NCBI GenBank assembly: GCA_018648685.1
Contig: JABGQT010000123.1
Location: 25,472-89,471, forward strand
Length of the DNA: 64,000 nucleotides
Source of the DNA: Anaerolineae bacterium
GTDB lineage: Bacteria; Chloroflexota; Anaerolineae; Anaerolineales; Villigracilaceae
Direction of reading: 5' to 3'
Shown here piece after piece: positions 7,608 through 20,430 of the stretch; position 1 is the stretch's first letter; each line of letters starts with the position of its first letter. Under the pieces are notes generated by a model that saw nothing but the letters and a program-made list of their open reading frames with translations, made no database searches and was not told the origin of the DNA. The position numbers and the translations under genes were made by a program.

Positions 7608-8276
7608 TTAACGTATCACTTTATATTTAGCCAAGATTCCCCCGTCATCCAACTTTTCCAAATTCAACAGATTTAATTTCTCCCCATCCAAAACCCCTTT
7701 GCCATCAACAAGGGTTGGGGCATTCGCGCCGCCAAAAATAAGAGGTGCAATATAAACCAGAATCTCATTCACCAGCCCAGCCGTGAGAAAGGCAGCATTT
7801 ATTCCACCGCCGCCTTCAACCATCAGATTTTCAATTCCCCATTCTTCTAAAAAAGCCAGCGCGGCGTTCAAATCTACGCGCTTTTTGCCCAACACACAGA
7901 CCACAGCCCCGGCTTCGCGCAAAAGAGCGAGTTGCGTGGCAGAAGTCTGCTCGGTGGTGAAGATGATGACTTTTCCCCTCCCCGCTGTCAGAAAGCGGCT
8001 TTTAGCGGTTAATGTCGCTTTTGAGACGATGCCTACTTTAACGGGATCAGGTTCAAATCCACGCGCGACCCGTTCATCCCGCAGCGTAGCGGATTTTACA
8101 GTCAGGCGCGGATCTTCATCCAACAATGTTCGTCCGCCAACCAAGATCGCATCGCTTTCAGCGCGCAAGCGATCCACTCTTTCCCAATCTGAATCCGATG
8201 AGATTTTTGCACCCTGGCGAGCGACATTGTCAATTTTGCCATCGAGGGTCATCGCAACGTTGATGATGATTTTCAT
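7608..8276 (-). CDS. RibD C-terminal/RIB7-like pyrimidine reductase (dihydrofolate reductase-like fold)
   Basis: [71 protein letters not shown]. Confidence 0.85.
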
Positions 8277-9172
8277 GGAATTTTCCCAAAAAAATCGAGT
8301 TGATGGGCGATGTAAACCAGCGTGCCGCTCTCGATTTGGGCGTGGCGCACGCTCGCCCAGGCATCGAGGCGGCGAGATTCAATTTCTCCGTCCAGCCCCC
8401 CATGAACAGTATCTACGATGAAATGCAAAAAATACGCCTCATCGGCGGGATAGCCATTTTCATCGCCGAAGACGACCCAATCTGAGCTTCCTGCTTCGAC
8501 AATTTCACCGCCCGCTTCACGTAAATGACTGAAAAGATGCCGCCCCGCGTGGCTATCGCCAGAAAGCTTTCCATCAATGATGCGCTCATCCATCGTGCGG
8601 TGATAGGCAGCCATGATCTCTTCGTCGTGCGGGATGGCTGGCTCAAAGATGGTCTCACCATCAAAATTGATCGTGAAATAAAAGTGTCCCTGCGGCTTTA
8701 GAAGTTCAAAAAGCTTTGGCAAGGTGGCGGGAATATCTACCAGATCAAGAAAAGCGTGTGCGATAAGCAGATCGTATTTTTCGTCAGCAGCACGACACGC
8801 CAGAAAGTCAAAAAGGTCTTCGGCGAGAAAGGCCACTTTGGTGACTTGACCGTTCTTCCACAAGACAAGCTTTTCACCTTCCCAACTTACAACAAAACTA
8901 TTCTCTTCTGCCCATTTTGGCAGACGCTCGCGGGCTGCGGCGATATTTTCGGATTGTTCATCAAGGAGCGTATAGCGGACGTGCTGAAGAACATGGCGTT
9001 CAAGCAGGCGCTCGATCATCGTCCCGATGCCGCCGCCGATCTCAAGAATTTCGACATCTTCGTAAGTATCAAGGGAGACGGCGAGCGCGTCCCACGCGCG
9101 TTGATTGAGAGCACGGTCGTCAACACTTTTTTTGGAGGCGAGATAACGGGGGAAATTATTATAATTGGACAT
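8273..9172 (-). CDS. class I SAM-dependent methyltransferase
   Basis: [18 protein letters not shown] motif I; start ATG chosen at 9172 ([15 protein letters not shown]) inside the 9211 ORF; 4-bp overlap with downstream gene. Confidence 0.8.
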
Positions 9173-9228
9173 AGTTTTCTTCACAAAATAATAGCCAAAA
9201 CGATTAAACAAAGGATTTTCCTCGTAGT

Positions 9229-9244
9229 AAGGGCTTCAGCCCTT
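9229..9244. repeat. short palindromic repeat overlapping GT stop codon
   Basis: AAGGGCTTCAGCCCTT perfect palindrome; the TGA stop of the glycosyltransferase lies within it. Confidence 0.6.
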
Positions 9245-10381
9245 TAATGCTTTGCGTAAAAACGCTCTAATTTTCTTTGCACTTTCATCCCAAGTAGGAT
9301 GCACCAAATAGCGTTCGCGCGCGGCAAGGCTCATTTGAATGAGTTTTTCACGGTCATCCGCCAATTCGCGCAGATGCGCGGCGAGCGTATTTCTATCATT
9401 AGCGCCGCCAAGAAAACCGTCCACGCCATGCGTGATGATCTCGTGCGCTGCACCATCGCTGCCGCCAATGGCGGGAAGTCCAAAACTCATCCCTTCCAGA
9501 TAGGCGATACCAAAACCTTCATAAGAAGAAGGCAAAGCCAGAAGATGAGAGTGCCGCAAAATCGCTTTGAGCGGCTCATCATCAAGACTTCCCGCAAAGG
9601 CGACCTCGTTCCCGAAGCCAAGCCTGGCAACTTGTGCGCGTATGCGCTGTACATATTTTGGGTCTGTATCCAAGCTGCCGACAATGATCAGTTCCCAGGA
9701 TTTTCGTGTAAGTAATGCAAGTGCATCAAGCAAAGTGTGTAAATTTTTACGCGGAATAACACTCCCCAAAAAGGCGATTTTCAGCGCTCTTTTCTGGCGC
9801 GCACGCGCAGAAATTTCATCACGATCTATGCTCGGCGCAAGTCGATTTCCCGCAGGATAAGCAACAACATGCGGGCGAGATTCTCCAATCGTTTTTTCAA
9901 CAACCCCTCGCGTTGTTTTACTATTAAAGATAAACCCATCTATACTACGAAGATAAGTTCGCTCAGGAATACGATAAAGTCTATTTTGCCACGCGGCACG
10001 CATCTCGCTGCTGCGCAGATGATGAACAATTGAAATAATAGGAGTTGCCCTCACCCTCCGCCCTCTCCCTTTGTGAGAGGGGACTGTCCCTTCCCCCTGA
10101 GGGGGAAGGTTAGGATGGAGGCACAATCGCCGATTCAGCCAGAAAAGTGACGGATGATTTAATTCATCTTGCACCAAAACGTCGAAACGAGAGCCAGCCA
10201 AACGTCGTAGCAGCGAAGCAGAGAAGTTATCCGTCAGATGCGCGGCATAATTTCGCCAGGGCAACGAGACAATTTCCACCTCGTCGCCAGCATCTCGCAA
10301 ATGCGCCACCAACTTTCGGTCGTAAAGATAACCGCCGCTGAGCGTATCTAAACTCCCGTAAATCACCAGTCCAACACGCAT
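9236..10381 (-). CDS. glycosyltransferase family 4 (group 1) with internal repeat-derived insertion
   Basis: KIAFLGSVIPRKNLHTLLDAL, LALPSSYEGFGIAYLEGMSFGLPAIG; start at MRVGLVIYGSLDTLSGGYLYDRK (10381), 4-bp overlap with PTPS gene. Confidence 0.85.
   Translation of the reverse strand: MRVGLVIYGSLDTLSGGYLYDRKLVAHLRDAGDEVEIVSLPWRNYAAHLTDNFSASLLRRLAGSRFDVLVQDELNHPSLFWLNRRLCLHPNLPPQGEGTVPSHKGRGRRVRATPIISIVHHLRSSEMRAAWQNRLYRIPERTYLRSIDGFIFNSKTTRGVVEKTIGESRPHVVAYPAGNRLAPSIDRDEISARARQKRALKIAFLGSVIPRKNLHTLLDALALLTRKSWELIIVGSLDTDPKYVQRIRAQVARLGFGNEVAFAGSLDDEPLKAILRHSHLLALPSSYEGFGIAYLEGMSFGLPAIGGSDGAAHEIITHGVDGFLGGANDRNTLAAHLRELADDREKLIQMSLAARERYLVHPTWDESAKKIRAFLRKALKG
10047..10121. repeat. palindromic intergenic-type repeat inserted in frame in the GT4 gene
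   Basis: CCCTCACCCTCCGCCCTCTCCCTTTGTGAGAGGGGACTGTCCCTTCCCCCTGAGGGGGAAGGTTAGGATGGAG; two hairpins (CCCTCTC/GAGAGGG, CCTTCCCCC/GGGGGAAGG); encodes LHPNLPPQGEGTVPSHKGRGRRVRA. Confidence 0.75.
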
Positions 10382-10758
10382 CAACGCTCCAGTTTGTAAG
10401 CAGCCCAGGCGATCTCGTTTTCCCAGAGCTTGACGGTCAATACAGAGATATTTGGCGCAGCAATCCGCTCGCTCAAAGTCTCGCACAGGATGCGCGAAAA
10501 ATGCTCAATAGAGGGGTTCAGCCCCGCAAATGCGGGCAAGTCGTTTAGCGTCTTATCTCGATATTCTGCAACGAGAGCATCGAGATTGGCTTCGATATCA
10601 ACAATATCCACGAGATAGCCGTGCTGGTCGAGCGTGGCGCCCTCCAGTTGCAACTCGATCACATAATGGTGCGAGTGATGGTCATTTTCCGCGCCCCAAT
10701 CCCCACCGATCAAAAAGTGCTGCGCAACAAAATCCCGTTTTACGGCAACAGTGTACAT
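10381..10758 (-). CDS. 6-pyruvoyl-tetrahydropterin synthase/QueD superfamily protein, Glu in place of catalytic Cys
   Basis: QHFLIGGDWGAENDHHSHHYVIELQLEG (Zn His triad; ExxxHSH instead of CxxxHGH), HGYLVDIVDIEANLDALV, LNDLPAFAGLNPSIEHFSRIL. Confidence 0.85.
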   Translation of the reverse strand: MYTVAVKRDFVAQHFLIGGDWGAENDHHSHHYVIELQLEGATLDQHGYLVDIVDIEANLDALVAEYRDKTLNDLPAFAGLNPSIEHFSRILCETLSERIAAPNISVLTVKLWENEIAWAAYKLER

Positions 10759-10778
10759 GGTATTCCTCCTTGGAATGA

Positions 10779-10841
10779 GACCCGAAAGGTTTTATCGCAA
10801 AGTCTTGTCTAGCACAGTTTCTTAGTGAAACCTTTCGGGTC
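10779..10841. terminator. long-loop hairpin between MDR and PTPS genes
   Basis: GACCCGAAAGGTTT (10779-10792) / AAACCTTTCGGGTC (10828-10841), 14-bp perfect inverted repeat. Confidence 0.55.
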
Positions 10842-10845
10842 TTTA

Positions 10846-11835
10846 TTACGGATATTCAAATACGATTTGTAAAACGTCCTGCGGACGGGAGTCGAGCGTG
10901 ACATAGGCTTGCTCTGCCTCTCCAAGCGGGGTGCGCGACGAAATCCATTTTGCCGGTTTGACCCGCCCCAACATCTCCCAGACCAAATTAAATCTGCGTG
11001 ATTTATCCCAGCGCGCACTGAATTGCGACGCAATAGTACTGACCTGCGAACTGATTATCCGAATCCGCTCCCGATGAAAGCGTCCACCCAGATCAAGCGA
11101 GACAGGCTTCTGCCCATACCACGAACCGACAATAACTCGCCCGCCAAAGCCAACTTTTTCGATAGCAGTGTTCAACGCATCTGGCACGCCCGAAAGCTCG
11201 ATAGCGAAATCAAAATCATGCAGAGCAATTTCTTCAGGCGCAAAAGCCGCATCTACGCCAAGAACAAGGGCTGCTTCCCGCCGAATAGCAACGGGATCAA
11301 CCACGATCAATTTTTCCAGCGGAAATTCTCTCAGGAGCGCCGTTGTTAATAAACCAATAATACCCTGCCCAAAAAGAATGGCGCGCTCACCTAAAATTGG
11401 CTGCGCGTCCATCACAAGATTAACTGCCGTCTCCATATTTGGCAGGAAAACTGCATCTTCATCAGGGATTTTGTCGGGAATAGAAAAAAGCTCAGAAACA
11501 GGCGCAACAAAAGAACTCTGATGAGGTTGAAAAGAAAAAACTCGCTTTTCCAGCAATGCTTCATCCACCCCTTCACCAACTTTCTCGACCACACCAACAG
11601 CCGCGTACCCATATTTAAGCGGATATCCGCTTTGCTCTTCGAGTGAGGTAATACTCGCATCCACCGCCATCTCACGCGGAAATTGACCGCGATAAAAAAG
11701 CATCTCTGTCCCTGCACTGATGGCAGAGAGCGTCGTCCGCACAAGAGCTTGACCATCTTCAAGAGCAGGCAAAGTTTCTTCTCGTACAGAGAGTTCGTAA
11801 GGGGCATCAAAATAGAGGGCTTGTCGTTTTTTCAT
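10846..11835 (-). CDS. MDR-family (BchC-like) alcohol dehydrogenase/reductase
   Basis: SAISAGTEMLFYRGQFP, KYGYAAVGVVEKVGEGV, ERAILFGQGIIGLLTTALL nucleotide-binding motif. Confidence 0.8.
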   Translation of the reverse strand: MKKRQALYFDAPYELSVREETLPALEDGQALVRTTLSAISAGTEMLFYRGQFPREMAVDASITSLEEQSGYPLKYGYAAVGVVEKVGEGVDEALLEKRVFSFQPHQSSFVAPVSELFSIPDKIPDEDAVFLPNMETAVNLVMDAQPILGERAILFGQGIIGLLTTALLREFPLEKLIVVDPVAIRREAALVLGVDAAFAPEEIALHDFDFAIELSGVPDALNTAIEKVGFGGRVIVGSWYGQKPVSLDLGGRFHRERIRIISSQVSTIASQFSARWDKSRRFNLVWEMLGRVKPAKWISSRTPLGEAEQAYVTLDSRPQDVLQIVFEYP

Positions 11836-12806
11836 CTTTTATCTAAACTACCTAACCATAAACCTAGCAAAGCCAAAAGTGAGTCGCGCACACGAATAAA
11901 TAAACTCATGCTCACACCAAAAACGGGATCAAATCCCAGCGACTGCATCGCAAAAACCTGTCCTGCTTCGAGAGCACCCAATCCGCCGGGAAGCGGGGTT
12001 AGAAATGCCAACCGCGCAAAAACGATGATCGCCAAAGCGTTGACCAAATTCACTTCCAGTCCTAAAAAGCGTAAAGCGAGGGCGTATTCTCCGAATAAAG
12101 ATACCCATTTTAACGCAGAAAGAAGACCGGACAAGAGGAGGGTGCGCGGTTGTTGGCGGCAGAAGTTCCCGATCTGAGATTCTACGCCCAGCAGCGTTTC
12201 GCGAATCACGCTTGGGGACGCTTGCTTCCCTTTAAACGAGAGCCTGCCAAATATCCAGGCAAGAGGCGTTCGTCCCATCCACAAAAGAACCATATAACCC
12301 ACAAGTAGAGCGATCATCCCGCCAGTAAAACCGACGACCGTCCCCACCATCTCTTGAAAAAAAAGACCTTGCCAGACCACGACCAGCATGGCTATTGACA
12401 AAAAGGTGAAATTTGAGAGCATTTCAAGCAATTTGTCGAGGCTAACAGAGGTTAATGCGGTCTCTGTGGAAACACCGTGGTTTTTATGCAAGAAATAAAT
12501 TTGTAATGGTTCACCACCAAACTGCGGGCCCGGTGTAAAGTAGCCCAGCCCAAAGCTGGCGAGGCGATATTTGGCAAGCGTAAGGTAAGAGATTTTATGC
12601 CCAAGCGCACGCAAAATAATCCACCAACGGCTGCTAAAGATCAGGACAATTGCTCCATTGAGAAGGAGCAAAATCGCGAGCGAAAGGAGGCTGAGTTGGC
12701 TAATAGCATCCCAAACTTGAATGAGAGCAATATCGTGCCATGCCCACCAAAAGAGCAGGGCGACAAAGGCCCAAAGAGCGAGCTTGATAAGCCTCTTCCT
12801 AGACAT
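11832..12806 (-). CDS. lysylphosphatidylglycerol synthase TM-region/UPF0104 flippase-like membrane protein
   Basis: polytopic; FGLGYFTPGPQFGGEPLQIYFLHK, ALAIIVFARLAFLTPLPGGLGALEAGQV motifs. Confidence 0.8.
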   Translation of the reverse strand: MSRKRLIKLALWAFVALLFWWAWHDIALIQVWDAISQLSLLSLAILLLLNGAIVLIFSSRWWIILRALGHKISYLTLAKYRLASFGLGYFTPGPQFGGEPLQIYFLHKNHGVSTETALTSVSLDKLLEMLSNFTFLSIAMLVVVWQGLFFQEMVGTVVGFTGGMIALLVGYMVLLWMGRTPLAWIFGRLSFKGKQASPSVIRETLLGVESQIGNFCRQQPRTLLLSGLLSALKWVSLFGEYALALRFLGLEVNLVNALAIIVFARLAFLTPLPGGLGALEAGQVFAMQSLGFDPVFGVSMSLFIRVRDSLLALLGLWLGSLDKR

Positions 12807-13938
12807 CCGCTTTTTCTCCAGCCCGATTATAAATCAACCATTCTTCTGGTGACCAGAGTGAAAGTGCTCCGGTACCAGTAAAAAGCAAGATCGTGCTCAA
12901 AACCAGCAAAATTGCTGAAATTGGCAAAATGCTGAAAAAAGTTAGTCCTGCAAAAATAAGAGTCAGGATAGCGATCAGTCGCCCTAAAATACCAAAGATG
13001 AGCATGATAATCAACACAACTTGTGCGAGAGTCCAGAGCGCGCCCAAAGAATATGCAAAGGCGATATACGCCAAACTCGCAACGGTGCAAAGACGTAAAA
13101 GGAGAGGCAACCAACGCATCCACGCAGAAGTAAGGATTTTATCAAAAAATGCTGCGCCTTTTTCAGGGTCAATCCTACCCGTCACTAAAAACCAATCATA
13201 AAGGAATCCACCCAGAAAGGGAATCATGAAAAGCGTCGCGGCGATGGTCGTGGCTGGCGGCGAAAAAAGCGGCGCGAGCATGGAGACGATAAAGCCCATC
13301 TGTACGCCAGCGAAAATCCGTCGTCTATAGCTGAAAGGCATTTCGAAATTTTGCTTACCTTGTTTCTCACGCAACCAAAGCCCGAAAATAAAAAAGTATC
13401 GTGCCAAGCCAACAGGAAGATACCACAGGGGAACTTGACCATACCAAAATACGAGCAGCGTCACGATCAGCACGCCCCATGAGTCATTATTCATATCGAG
13501 AGCTGCGCCCAATTTAGTGACGTGATTATTTATCCGTGCTAAATATCCATCAAGAATATCACTCAGGGCTGCGAAAAGATAAAAAGTAAAAGGCAACCAC
13601 GCCAACCAGCCTTCTGCCCAAGGAGAAAAAAGAAATCCTAGCAGACCAGCAATGAATATCCCCCGCGCAAAAGAGATCGCATTTCCCCATCCTAAAGTTG
13701 GCAACAGATCCACTTCGCCTTCACGATGATTTTCTCCCAATGAACGCCACAAAACAAATAACTGCCATGCCCCAAAAACAGATGTTAATCCCAGCCAGCG
13801 TAGGGCATAACGCGTTTCCCAAAAGCGGTTAAATAAAAAATAGCCCCCACTGGCAAAAAGCATAAAAAATAGCCCCGCTCGCATCCATTCTTTCTTCAGA
13901 TGAGTCAGGGCTAGAGAATTAATATTTGAAAGACTCAT
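12799..13938 (-). CDS. CDP-alcohol phosphatidyltransferase family protein
   Basis: SDILDGYLARINNHVTKLGAALDMNND matches DGx2ARx8Gx3Dx3D. Confidence 0.85.
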   Translation of the reverse strand: MSLSNINSLALTHLKKEWMRAGLFFMLFASGGYFLFNRFWETRYALRWLGLTSVFGAWQLFVLWRSLGENHREGEVDLLPTLGWGNAISFARGIFIAGLLGFLFSPWAEGWLAWLPFTFYLFAALSDILDGYLARINNHVTKLGAALDMNNDSWGVLIVTLLVFWYGQVPLWYLPVGLARYFFIFGLWLREKQGKQNFEMPFSYRRRIFAGVQMGFIVSMLAPLFSPPATTIAATLFMIPFLGGFLYDWFLVTGRIDPEKGAAFFDKILTSAWMRWLPLLLRLCTVASLAYIAFAYSLGALWTLAQVVLIIMLIFGILGRLIAILTLIFAGLTFFSILPISAILLVLSTILLFTGTGALSLWSPEEWLIYNRAGEKADV

Positions 13939-14420
13939 TAATATGTCGGCGGATTAGGATTCCCAACAAACCAGGTGGAATAAACCCAAATGCCCAAAAT
14001 CGTCGTCAGCATATACAAGCCGTAGGCTACGCGCATAAAAGCCTTGTAATTTTTAAATTTCAACGCTTTTGGCACCAACCCATTCCCACGCAGGGTTACG
14101 AAAAGCCCGAAGGTGAGTGCAAAAAATCCCACAAAGGCATGCAGGGTCGTTATGGCATGAAATCGCTCCGCAAGTTGAGCAGGGATACCCGGCGCAACAA
14201 AATCTCTATAGGGCAAAACCATCATCCACAAGACCATGATCGCATTTAAAATCGCGGCCGCCGTCTGCACCCAACGGTGCGTATCATATTTCTTTTTCAC
14301 CGCCAAAACAACGCCCACTGTGAACAGGCTGGCGATCAAGATCATCATTACCAACGTGAAATCAGCTGCAAAATTTGCGCTTGTACCAAAAAAACCAGGC
14401 TGATGTAAGATTTCGTCCAT
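13938..14420 (-). CDS. DUF420-like small membrane protein
   Basis: four TM segments with spaced His residues; start chosen at MDEILHQPG (14420). Confidence 0.6.
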   Translation of the reverse strand: MDEILHQPGFFGTSANFAADFTLVMMILIASLFTVGVVLAVKKKYDTHRWVQTAAAILNAIMVLWMMVLPYRDFVAPGIPAQLAERFHAITTLHAFVGFFALTFGLFVTLRGNGLVPKALKFKNYKAFMRVAYGLYMLTTILGIWVYSTWFVGNPNPPTY

Positions 14421-14498
14421 AGAATCTCCTCTCTCTATAAGATAAATAAGGTCAAATTTTACCATGTTATCAAAAATCATCGGGTAAAATCATGCGAT

Positions 14499-15455: not shown

Positions 15456-16463
15456 ATGAAAAAATTGAGCCAAACTCTCCTGACCGCCATCGAAGAAGAA
15501 CTTCAGCATCAAGTTTCACGCCTGAATGAAGAGCACACTGCTACTTATCACGAAATGCTCACTTATCATATGGGCTGGACCGGGGAAGGCGCAGGCGAGA
15601 AGGCTCGCGGCAAAAGAATTCGCCCGCTTTTGCTTTTATTAGCCGCATCAGCATCTGGAGGCGATTGGGAAAAAGCTCTTCCCGCTGCTGCTGGGATTGA
15701 GTTAATTCATAATTTCTCGCTCTTTCACGATGATATTCAAGACAAATCAGAGACACGGCGTGGTCGTCCTACAGCGTGGAAAATTTGGGGAATAGCACAA
15801 GCGATCAACGCCGGTGATGGAATGTTCATCCTTGCCAACCTAGCAATAGGAGATTTAGCAAAAAACTATCCCGCCGATATTATTTTAGTAGGTGAAAGAA
15901 TTTTTCAGAAAACATGCCTGGACTTAACGCGCGGCCAACATCTAGACATTGATTATGAAAGTCGAAGCGACCTTTCTGTTGGCGACTACTGGACTATGAT
16001 CGCTGGAAAAACTGCTGCGCTCATCTCTACATCCATGCAACTGGGAGCATTATTTGGCGGTGCAAACGAAGAGACTCAAAATGCCTATCGCGATTTTGGG
16101 CATTATCTTGGGCTTGCTTTTCAGGTGCAGGATGATATTCTTGGCATTTGGGGCGATGAGGCACTAACTGGAAAGTCTGCCGCGAGCGATCTACTTGAAG
16201 GGAAAAAATCGCTGCCTGTTTTATATGGGTTTGAGAAAAACGAAGAATTTGCCCAGAGATGGAAAGAAGGTTCAATAGAAGAAGCAAACGTTCCTAAAAT
16301 GGCACAACTTCTCGAAGTGGAAGGAGCTCGCCTGAAGGCGCAACGCCAAGCCGACCAGATGACAGATTTGGCGCTGAAATCTCTACAGATGGCAAATCCG
16401 CAAGATGATGCTGGGGATGCGCTATTCTCACTCGCAGAACACCTGCTTGGGCGCGAGGCTTGA
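15456..16463 (+). CDS. polyprenyl (geranylgeranyl-type) diphosphate synthase
   Basis: HDDIQDKSETRRGRPT and QVQDDILGIWGD, GKKSLPVLYG. Confidence 0.9.
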   Translation: MKKLSQTLLTAIEEELQHQVSRLNEEHTATYHEMLTYHMGWTGEGAGEKARGKRIRPLLLLLAASASGGDWEKALPAAAGIELIHNFSLFHDDIQDKSETRRGRPTAWKIWGIAQAINAGDGMFILANLAIGDLAKNYPADIILVGERIFQKTCLDLTRGQHLDIDYESRSDLSVGDYWTMIAGKTAALISTSMQLGALFGGANEETQNAYRDFGHYLGLAFQVQDDILGIWGDEALTGKSAASDLLEGKKSLPVLYGFEKNEEFAQRWKEGSIEEANVPKMAQLLEVEGARLKAQRQADQMTDLALKSLQMANPQDDAGDALFSLAEHLLGREA

Positions 16464-19167: not shown

Positions 19168-20430
19168 ATGAACCAAGATTTACGCGAACTGCTCAAGATC
19201 CCTAATAAACATCTCGATGAAATTAATGCCGTTTTGCTCAACCCAGACGAGCGCGTGATTAACGATTTCTTAGCTGTCGTTGCCAAATACGGCACACCCG
19301 AAGAGATCAACGCCAAAGCTGTCGAAGCACGCAAACTGGAAAATCTGCTTGCAAAAGTCAAAGAAGTCAAACCTGAATATCTCGACGATCTCAAATGGCT
19401 AGCAGAACAACGCGATGCGGGAGCTTTCATCACCGTAGATGCCTATAAAGAGAAAGTTTTGGGTGAAAAAGCAGTCTCCACAGAATTCCTCGACGATTTC
19501 GCTGTAACGCTTGAAATCAGTGCTTGCCAGTATTTCCCGTGGTTGATAACAGCGGCAAAACGCTCAATAGAAGAGGGCAAGTTGATGCCCGGGCGTTTCA
19601 TCCGCGTCCGAAAAATGAAAGAACAGGAAGATGACGGTGACCTGGTCGCCTTCGCTGCCGGAATGCAGATCATTGGCGCAACCTATGTCGAAACACTCGA
19701 TACGAAAGGTACGGACGGCTCAAATATCCACCTGGGTGGACCGGACACCATCACCGGCTATTTTGGCGGCATCGGGCAGCCCAACAGCCATGCGCTCAAA
19801 TGGATAGATGAATTTCTTTACTATTACACACGCTACGGTGTAAAGCAGGTTCTCAATATCAACCCTGGCACCATTCTCTTGGCCTATATGCTCCACAAAA
19901 TAGGTGTGGATAATGAATTTAAGATTTCAGTTTTTATGGGCAACGACAATCCCTATGCTGCCCTGTGGACTTTGCTCGGCGCAAAACTTTTTGCCAGAGA
20001 AGACGGAACAACGCCTCTGATCGGTTTCAACTGGGGCAATTCGGTCAACAACGAATCCATGGAAATTACCGCCCAGTTCCGTAAAGAGCTTGGCTTTGAA
20101 GAGATCGTCCGTTTTGAGCATCACATCACGGAGACTTTCAAACATATCATTATCCAGCCTTATAATCGCCGCGATGAGCTACTCGAACTTGCCGACCACG
20201 TTCCCAACATTTCGGCCAAACACGAAGGCGGAGATCCGGAAATTGATGGTAAGCGAGAACATCCATCTGATATTCTCGAATATTTCCGCGATAAAGAAGA
20301 GATCATCGCTGCCGGTGACATGGATTTCCTCGAGATCAATTTCATGGACAAATTTGAAGCGCTCAATAAAACAGCCTGGCAGCTCACCGAACGCGGCTAT
20401 GCCTTTATTGCTGCAGAAGTGCACAAATAG
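19168..20430 (+). CDS. conserved-looking soluble protein of unknown function (420 aa)
   Basis: good RBS (GGAGGA), terminator downstream; no family recognised. Confidence 0.75.
   Translation: MNQDLRELLKIPNKHLDEINAVLLNPDERVINDFLAVVAKYGTPEEINAKAVEARKLENLLAKVKEVKPEYLDDLKWLAEQRDAGAFITVDAYKEKVLGEKAVSTEFLDDFAVTLEISACQYFPWLITAAKRSIEEGKLMPGRFIRVRKMKEQEDDGDLVAFAAGMQIIGATYVETLDTKGTDGSNIHLGGPDTITGYFGGIGQPNSHALKWIDEFLYYYTRYGVKQVLNINPGTILLAYMLHKIGVDNEFKISVFMGNDNPYAALWTLLGAKLFAREDGTTPLIGFNWGNSVNNESMEITAQFRKELGFEEIVRFEHHITETFKHIIIQPYNRRDELLELADHVPNISAKHEGGDPEIDGKREHPSDILEYFRDKEEIIAAGDMDFLEINFMDKFEALNKTAWQLTERGYAFIAAEVHK

Follow-up and report, generated by a model that had tools for sequence, protein, structure and literature searches.

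A conserved gene cluster of Chloroflexota with a non-canonical PTPS homologue and a probable role in an uncharacterised pathway from the GTP cyclohydrolase II product

Introduction

The gene cluster considered here has as its closest known relative the uncharacterised SCO6650/SCO6655-type cluster of Streptomyces coelicolor, and lies in a stretch of 64,000 nucleotides (the window) from an Anaerolineae bacterium of the Villigracilaceae (phylum Chloroflexota; GenBank assembly GCA_018648685.1, contig JABGQT010000123.1, positions 25,472 to 89,471 of the forward strand). SCO6655 is reportedly a GTP cyclohydrolase II (GCH II) that stops at a formylated pyrimidine, and the PTPS homologue SCO6650 is said to contain no zinc and to have no PTPS activity. 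Family profile searches of the window proteins recognised seven consecutive minus-strand genes (13938–7608), which specify, in order of transcription, a CDP-alcohol phosphotransferase, a flippase-like membrane protein, a medium-chain dehydrogenase/reductase (MDR), a PTPS homologue, a family 4 glycosyltransferase (GT4), a methyltransferase and a RIB7-type reductase. We conclude that this operon is probably part of an uncharacterised pathway in which the GCH II product is converted to a glycosylated, methylated pyrimidine or pteridine, and not to a flavin, folate, queuosine or F420. No description of the pathway was found in the open-licence literature; known are the enzyme families and the related, unexplained Streptomyces cluster.

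The structure model of the window PTPS homologue (pLDDT 94.3) has the PTPS T-fold, and SCO6650 (PDB 3d7j) is its best match both in sequence (5.5e-10, 28% identity) and in fold (TM-score 0.92, ahead of QueD). In Streptomyces fungicidicus, whose PTPS homologue is 91% identical to SCO6650, genes for a CDP-alcohol phosphotransferase, MDR, PTPS, GT4, methyltransferase, creatininase and GCH II lie close together. Product supply by GCH II or III, combined with MDR, PTPS, GT4 and CDP-alcohol phosphotransferase, is thus common to the SCO6650/SCO6655-type and the Chloroflexota clusters. They differ in that the Streptomyces methyltransferase has no match to the Chloroflexota profile, that SCO6650 has HGA in place of HSH and lacks the Glu, and that Streptomyces pairs a Met-type GCH II with a creatininase whereas Chloroflexota have a Tyr-type RibA without creatininase and add RIB7.

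Three better described systems share parts of this inventory. The cyanobacterial pterin glycoside is made with the participation of a PTPS and a glycosyltransferase. Cyanopterin, limipterin, tepidopterin and solfapterin are presented as a pterin ring with side-chain glycosylation (PMC3546692, PMC13259868). For those biopterin glycosides the starting enzymes are GCH I and a canonical PTPS, whereas the present clusters hold GCH II or III, RIB7, an MDR and a PTPS of non-canonical type. The early steps of archaeal and fungal riboflavin synthesis (ArfA/ArfB/ArfC; RIB1/RIB7) have their first two reactions, and the enzyme families concerned, in common with the scheme proposed here, but lumazine synthase is lacking in 26 of the 27 genomes with the PTPS homologue that were searched for it, and MDR, PTPS, GT4 and methyltransferase take the place of the later steps. 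Finally, PTPS-I (QueD) and PTPS-III share the T-fold, the zinc histidines and the anchoring Glu with the window protein, which also resembles PTPS-III in having a Glu close to where the catalytic Cys has been lost; it differs from both in its motif (ExxxHSH rather than CxxxHGH or ExxHGH), in the loss of the Asp–His pair and in its gene neighbours.

Conservation of the cluster in Chloroflexota

With a threshold of E<=0.001, a PTPS homologue is present among 40 close relatives in 26 and among 249 genomes of the class in 84, about 50 of the 84 reaching E<=1e-35. A phylum-wide draw gave 30 matches of about 1e-50 or better, the next standing at 4e-24, a clear gap that bounds the subfamily. Eighty orthologous loci were named, and neighbours were counted, within about 6.5 kb of the PTPS gene, at the 44 of them where the sequence extends 4 kb or more to either side of it. 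GT4 accompanies PTPS at 38 of these, MDR at 34, RIB7 and the methyltransferase at 33 each and RibA at 30, and the flippase-like and CDP-alcohol genes at 17 and 13, respectively. The order of the core genes (MDR, PTPS-like protein, GT4, methyltransferase and RIB7-type reductase) is kept across the class, usually as RibA, RIB7, MDR, PTPS, GT4, methyltransferase; RibA and RIB7 are fused in several lineages, and the position of RIB7 at the end of the operon is a peculiarity of the window's genus. In the relatives G007 and G008, ribA lies on the same contig as the cluster, 1.3–1.5 kb from PTPS.

The arrangement cannot be put down to chance, because it is found again in dozens of genomes within the class, in other phyla and in archaea. 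The preliminary description of the locus had suggested that GCH II might be associated with the PTPS homologue and that a neighbourhood confined to close relatives would speak against the pathway it proposed; the counts above establish the association, and the cluster extends well beyond close relatives, which leaves the core of that proposal standing.

Two further observations concern these loci. A small membrane protein with a weak DUF7475 match (L086:7104-7439 and orthologues) accompanies the operon at 19 of the 44 loci. A metagenome-assembled genome named Desulfomonile tiedjei (L148) carries RIB7-MDR-PTPS-GT4-methyltransferase, with a PTPS 73% identical to that of the window, which reflects either horizontal transfer or misbinning.

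Related clusters and variants of the first step

A search of plasmids revealed PTPS homologues of 45–52% identity on haloarchaeal megaplasmids, adjoining MDR homologues, and related clusters occur also in Cohnella and on plasmids of Streptomyces and Thiodictyon. The haloarchaeal clusters combine MDR and PTPS with varying sets of GT4, methyltransferase and CDP-alcohol genes, and pairwise identities between Chloroflexota and haloarchaeal clusters are 40–43% for GT4, 33–41% for the methyltransferase and 43–48% for MDR. The MDR is 38–48% identical to the PTPS neighbours in archaea, Cohnella, Thiodictyon and Streptomyces, and CDP-alcohol homologues adjoining the haloarchaeal, Streptomyces and Thiodictyon clusters show 27–34% identity. 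The flippase-like gene is absent from the archaeal clusters seen and was found in some Chloroflexota only. The isolate Cohnella silvisoli (Bacillota) keeps RIB7-MDR-PTPS-RibA and has an ordinary RibBA elsewhere in its genome.

These clusters differ in how the pathway begins. In Haloarcula the first enzyme is a GCH III, which belongs to an unrelated family (PF05165, 272.6 bits), and in H. sinaiiensis and H. marismortui a creatininase-family gene lies near it. GCH III together with a creatininase-family formamidase arrives at the diaminopyrimidine that RibA makes by itself (PMC9478397). The S. fungicidicus cluster has a creatininase-type deformylase and a GCH II in which Met occupies the position of E. 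coli Tyr105, whereas every one of the 69 readable Chloroflexota RibA sequences has Tyr there. In work on S. coelicolor, a GCH II with this Tyr-to-Met change reportedly goes no further than the formylated compound. All of these routes would be expected to end in one and the same diaminopyrimidine. That a single downstream set is served by three different solutions of the first step is the best evidence on the substrate of the cluster, which is likely to be 2,5-diamino-6-ribosylamino-4-pyrimidinone 5'-phosphate.

The same comparison bears on whether the cluster serves cell-envelope lipid glycosylation, with RIB7, PTPS and MDR recruited to sugar chemistry and no pyrimidine involved. GT4, flippase-like, CDP-alcohol and acyltransferase neighbours would suit such a role, but the association with RibA, GCH III and creatininase identifies a GTP-derived pyrimidine as the input and the pterin-anchoring Glu113 is kept in 121 of 122 PTPS sequences, and we regard this explanation as unlikely.

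Some neighbouring genes in these organisms deserve mention. In C. silvisoli a gene for a stand-alone non-ribosomal peptide synthetase condensation domain (L167:6838-8181) is divergent from the RIB7-MDR-PTPS-RibA cluster, a hint that the product may have a variant with an acyl group or an amide link. In Haloarcula a long Gfo/Idh/MocA protein is encoded beside the CDP-alcohol gene (L206:4643-6382, L215:2919-4889), fused to an aldo/keto reductase in H. sinaiiensis, and possibly supplies a sugar or polyol. An MDR-related match was also seen in Rhizobium, where it is unannotated.

The PTPS homologue

Across 122 PTPS sequences, His14, Glu24, His30 and Glu85 are invariant and position 28 is His in 115. 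The zinc ligands, the pterin-anchoring Glu and the ExxxHSH motif are kept and the QueD/PTPS catalytic triad is lost, the Cys position being Glu in all 122 and the equivalents of Asp70-His71 being R/K and D/E in nearly all. Three PTPS signatures are known, CxxxHGH, CxxxxxHGH and ExxHGH (PMC5041015), and on sequence grounds the ExxxHSH motif fits none of them. Assignment to QueD (PTPS-I) is contradicted by the changes in the triad and by a TIGR03367 score of 43 bits, where the cut-off is 89; the biopterin type, PTPS-II (CxxxxxHGH), does not fit either, since only 2 of the 122 sequences have any Cys in residues 10–35, and in comparison with the folate-bypass type, PTPS-III (ExxHGH), the Glu stands one residue further upstream. 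A phylogenetic tree shows two groups, one made up of the window protein with those of Cohnella and the haloarchaea (94/97) and one of the SCO6650 type (100/99), the union of both against QueD-like proteins being weakly supported (76/87).

A role in queuosine or 7-deazapurine synthesis, with the PTPS homologue acting as QueD, is what the fold and the automatic annotation of haloarchaeal and Streptomyces members ('6-carboxytetrahydropterin synthase', with a queuosine Gene Ontology term) would indicate. Besides the missing Cys, the replaced Asp–His pair and the sub-threshold TIGR03367 score, queC and queE are not among the neighbours in annotated loci and seven PTPS-positive genomes lack GCH I, which makes this role highly improbable.

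Riboflavin, folate and F420 synthesis in the host genomes

Enzyme families were searched for in 43 genomes of the class, 27 of them PTPS-positive and 16 PTPS-negative; these genomes are mutually related, so that counts are not independent, and several are incomplete. RibA is present in every PTPS-positive genome and in 6 of the PTPS-negative ones (33/43 overall), and a high-scoring RIB7-type gene likewise occurs in 27/27, that of the window being the sole RibD_C gene of its genome. RibH (lumazine synthase) is absent from 26 of the 27 and from 41 of all 43, with the control positive in 14/14. None was found in the window genome (88.5% complete), and none in the single-contig genomes G016, G248 and G271. 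In those 26 genomes, therefore, RibA and RIB7 do not serve the known route to riboflavin, and the near-general absence of RibH suggests class-wide riboflavin auxotrophy. Both RibH-bearing genomes carry an ordinary ribBA-ribD-ribH operon, and one of them, G037, is PTPS-positive with a separate RIB7 in the cluster.

It could be argued that RibA and RIB7, whose families catalyse riboflavin steps, belong to a riboflavin pathway, remnant or alternative, whose lumazine synthase goes unrecognised, the other genes being bystanders, and that the ordinary operon of G037 beside the cluster points the same way. We consider this very unlikely: the loss of RibH extends to single-contig genomes, RIB7 is unaccompanied by a RibD deaminase domain, G037 and Cohnella keep their ordinary riboflavin genes separate, and the plasmid-borne haloarchaeal clusters contain a gene for GCH III.

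FolE is missing from eight PTPS-positive genomes and FolE2 was found in only one of these, which leaves seven without either type of GCH I, four of the seven also lacking HPPK. It follows that the substrate of the PTPS homologue does not have to come from GCH I. HPPK is kept in the other three (G007, G241 and G271), and there a GCH I-independent folate supply is conceivable, in which a dihydropterin from the cluster would feed HPPK and dihydropteroate synthase; PTPS-III enzymes are able to replace FolB (PMC5041015). Most PTPS-positive genomes nevertheless have both FolE and HPPK, four have neither GCH I nor HPPK, the PTPS-III motif is absent, and GT4, methyltransferase and CDP-alcohol transferase have no place in folate synthesis, so that this too is distinctly unlikely. 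No folate genes were found in the PTPS neighbourhood.

F420 enters the discussion by way of the Fo precursor 5-amino-6-ribitylaminouracil, which stems from the same GCH II branch, and of an unpublished remark on a PTPS-IV for archaeal F420 (PMC5041015). However, CofH (TIGR03551) exceeded its cut-off in 0/43 genomes, CofG not being searched separately, and CofG, CofH, CofD and CofE were not seen among annotated neighbours; synthesis of F420 or Fo is an exceedingly improbable role.

Genome-wide family searches thus largely reject the queuosine, folate, riboflavin and F420 roles. The preliminary description had proposed a GTP-cyclohydrolase-derived heterocycle decorated by GT4 and the methyltransferase, and comparative genomics strongly supports such a pathway, separate from flavin, folate and queuosine synthesis; a GCH I/QueD-type activity of the PTPS homologue is not supported, its catalytic triad being gone.

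The other enzymes

The RIB7-type reductase (222 residues, no deaminase domain) scores narrowly above the TIGR01508 cut-off, at 186.7 against 186.45 bits, which places it in the RIB7/ArfC family; its best PDB match is 5xux (9.5e-42), followed by the archaeal reductase 2azn (1.6e-34). In Anaerolineaceae with a split cluster (L226-L242, e.g. L226:7427-8101, minus strand) the RIB7-RibA pair lies elsewhere and is followed by a short-chain dehydrogenase (SDR) in 12 of the 20 loci examined, and the RIB7/RibA/SDR trio is retained in the PTPS-less genomes G018, G148 and G200; these genes may have a second role outside the PTPS cluster.

The MDR is without the usual catalytic zinc ligands, and His105, His254, Glu44, Glu135 and Asp143 are kept in 93 orthologues. 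Its assignment as BchC was rejected, at 87 bits against the TIGR01202 cut-off of 291. The methyltransferase model has a SAM-methyltransferase fold (pLDDT 88.7); a sequence search of the PDB returned nothing for this protein, and a fold search only generic SAM methyltransferases.

Organisation of the operon

Recomputed junctions of -8, -4, +87, -1, +24 and -4 nt along the direction of transcription confirm the seven-gene operon first described, with exactly four overlaps of 1–8 nt, and profile matches uphold the family names given to all seven genes (Table 1). The GT4 start at 10486 in the list of open reading frames is too far upstream, the conserved start being 10381; for the methyltransferase the conserved start is probably 9172 rather than 9211. 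An eighth gene, for a DUF420-like protein, overlaps the CDP-alcohol gene by 1 nt, has an equivalent position in operons of the same genus (L058, L059, L099-L102), and is probably co-transcribed but peripheral.

Table 1. Features of the operon and its immediate surroundings in the window
Feature	Position	Strand	Evidence
DUF420-like small membrane protein	13938..14480	-	match below Pfam cut-off
CDP-alcohol phosphotransferase, extra membrane segments	12799..13938	-	CDP-OH_P_transf PF01066 2.2e-18
Flippase-like membrane protein (LPG_synthase_TM / TIGR00374)	11832..12806	-	PF03706 3.2e-37
MDR, BchC-like, core enzyme	10846..11835	-	ADH_zinc_N 1.5e-8; BchC TIGR01202 8.9e-25
Perfect 14-bp inverted repeat, MDR-PTPS gap	10779..10841	-	arms 10779-10792 and 10828-10841
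PTPS/QueD-fold protein, distinct ExxxHSH subfamily, core enzyme	10381..10758	-	PF01242 2e-25
GT4 glycosyltransferase	9236..10381	-	PF00534 1.4e-32
Class I SAM-dependent methyltransferase	8273..9211	-	PF08242 1.5e-10; fold model
RIB7/archaeal-type diaminopyrimidine reductase, stand-alone RibD_C	7608..8276	-	RibD_C 4.7e-46; TIGR01508

The inverted repeat in the 87-nt gap has 35 nt between its arms and no second copy in the window, and is possibly an attenuator or an mRNA hairpin. Promoter and terminator scans gave signals at chance level. Elsewhere in the window, positions 15456-16463 encode a polyprenyl synthetase whose best NCBIfam match is a family 2 encapsulin cargo model (306 bits, cut-off 450; encapsulins were not searched for), and positions 19168-20430 hold a 420-residue plus-strand open reading frame with no Pfam match at E<=0.001.

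Proposed pathway and implications

We envisage six steps, of which the first two are drawn from family function and co-occurrence and the last four are inferred. RibA would turn GTP into 2,5-diamino-6-ribosylamino-4-pyrimidinone 5'-phosphate (step 1), and the RIB7-type reductase would convert this to its ribityl form, a ribitylaminopyrimidine phosphate (step 2). The MDR would then oxidise a ribityl hydroxyl (step 3), oxidation of an alcohol to a ketone being the simplest reading of its role. The PTPS-like protein would grip the 2-amino-4-oxopyrimidine through Glu113, while the metal and Glu24 steer ring closure or a side-chain rearrangement (step 4), possibly giving a dihydropterin without GCH I; ring closure between a 2'-ketone and the 5-amino group would form a dihydropterin, the type of ligand that suits the PTPS fold and its Glu. 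Glycosylation by GT4 and methylation by the methyltransferase would follow (step 5), and the CDP-alcohol phosphotransferase may couple the product, or a precursor of it, to lipid as a phospholipid conjugate (step 6). The exact chemistry given here for the MDR and PTPS steps is tentative and rather doubtful.

Several observations weigh against this proposal. The ribA gene of the window genome is on a separate contig (C150), a few PTPS orthologues are solitary (L083, L091), and the Streptomyces and Thiodictyon members are divergent, with PTPS identities of 27–33%. Five genomes keep RIB7-RibA with neither PTPS nor RibH detected, which implies some PTPS-independent role for these two genes.

Should the proposed pathway nonetheless be correct, the database names now attached to these PTPS proteins ('6-carboxytetrahydropterin synthase', queuosine) would be wrong, and the structure of SCO6650, deposited in 2008 without a known activity, would gain a hypothesis of function. 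Haloarcula, Halomicrococcus, Cohnella silvisoli and Streptomyces fungicidicus offer cultured hosts in which the product could be sought. It is possible, though we would not yet favour it, that the product represents a class of bacterial and archaeal cofactor or pigment made by a GCH I-independent route, a glycosylated, methylated and perhaps lipid-anchored pterin-like molecule kept by Chloroflexota that gave up their own riboflavin synthesis. Even without this further reading, the proposed pathway would give GCH II and RIB7, the entry enzymes of riboflavin synthesis, a second and dedicated role throughout a class of abundant environmental bacteria that resemble riboflavin auxotrophs.

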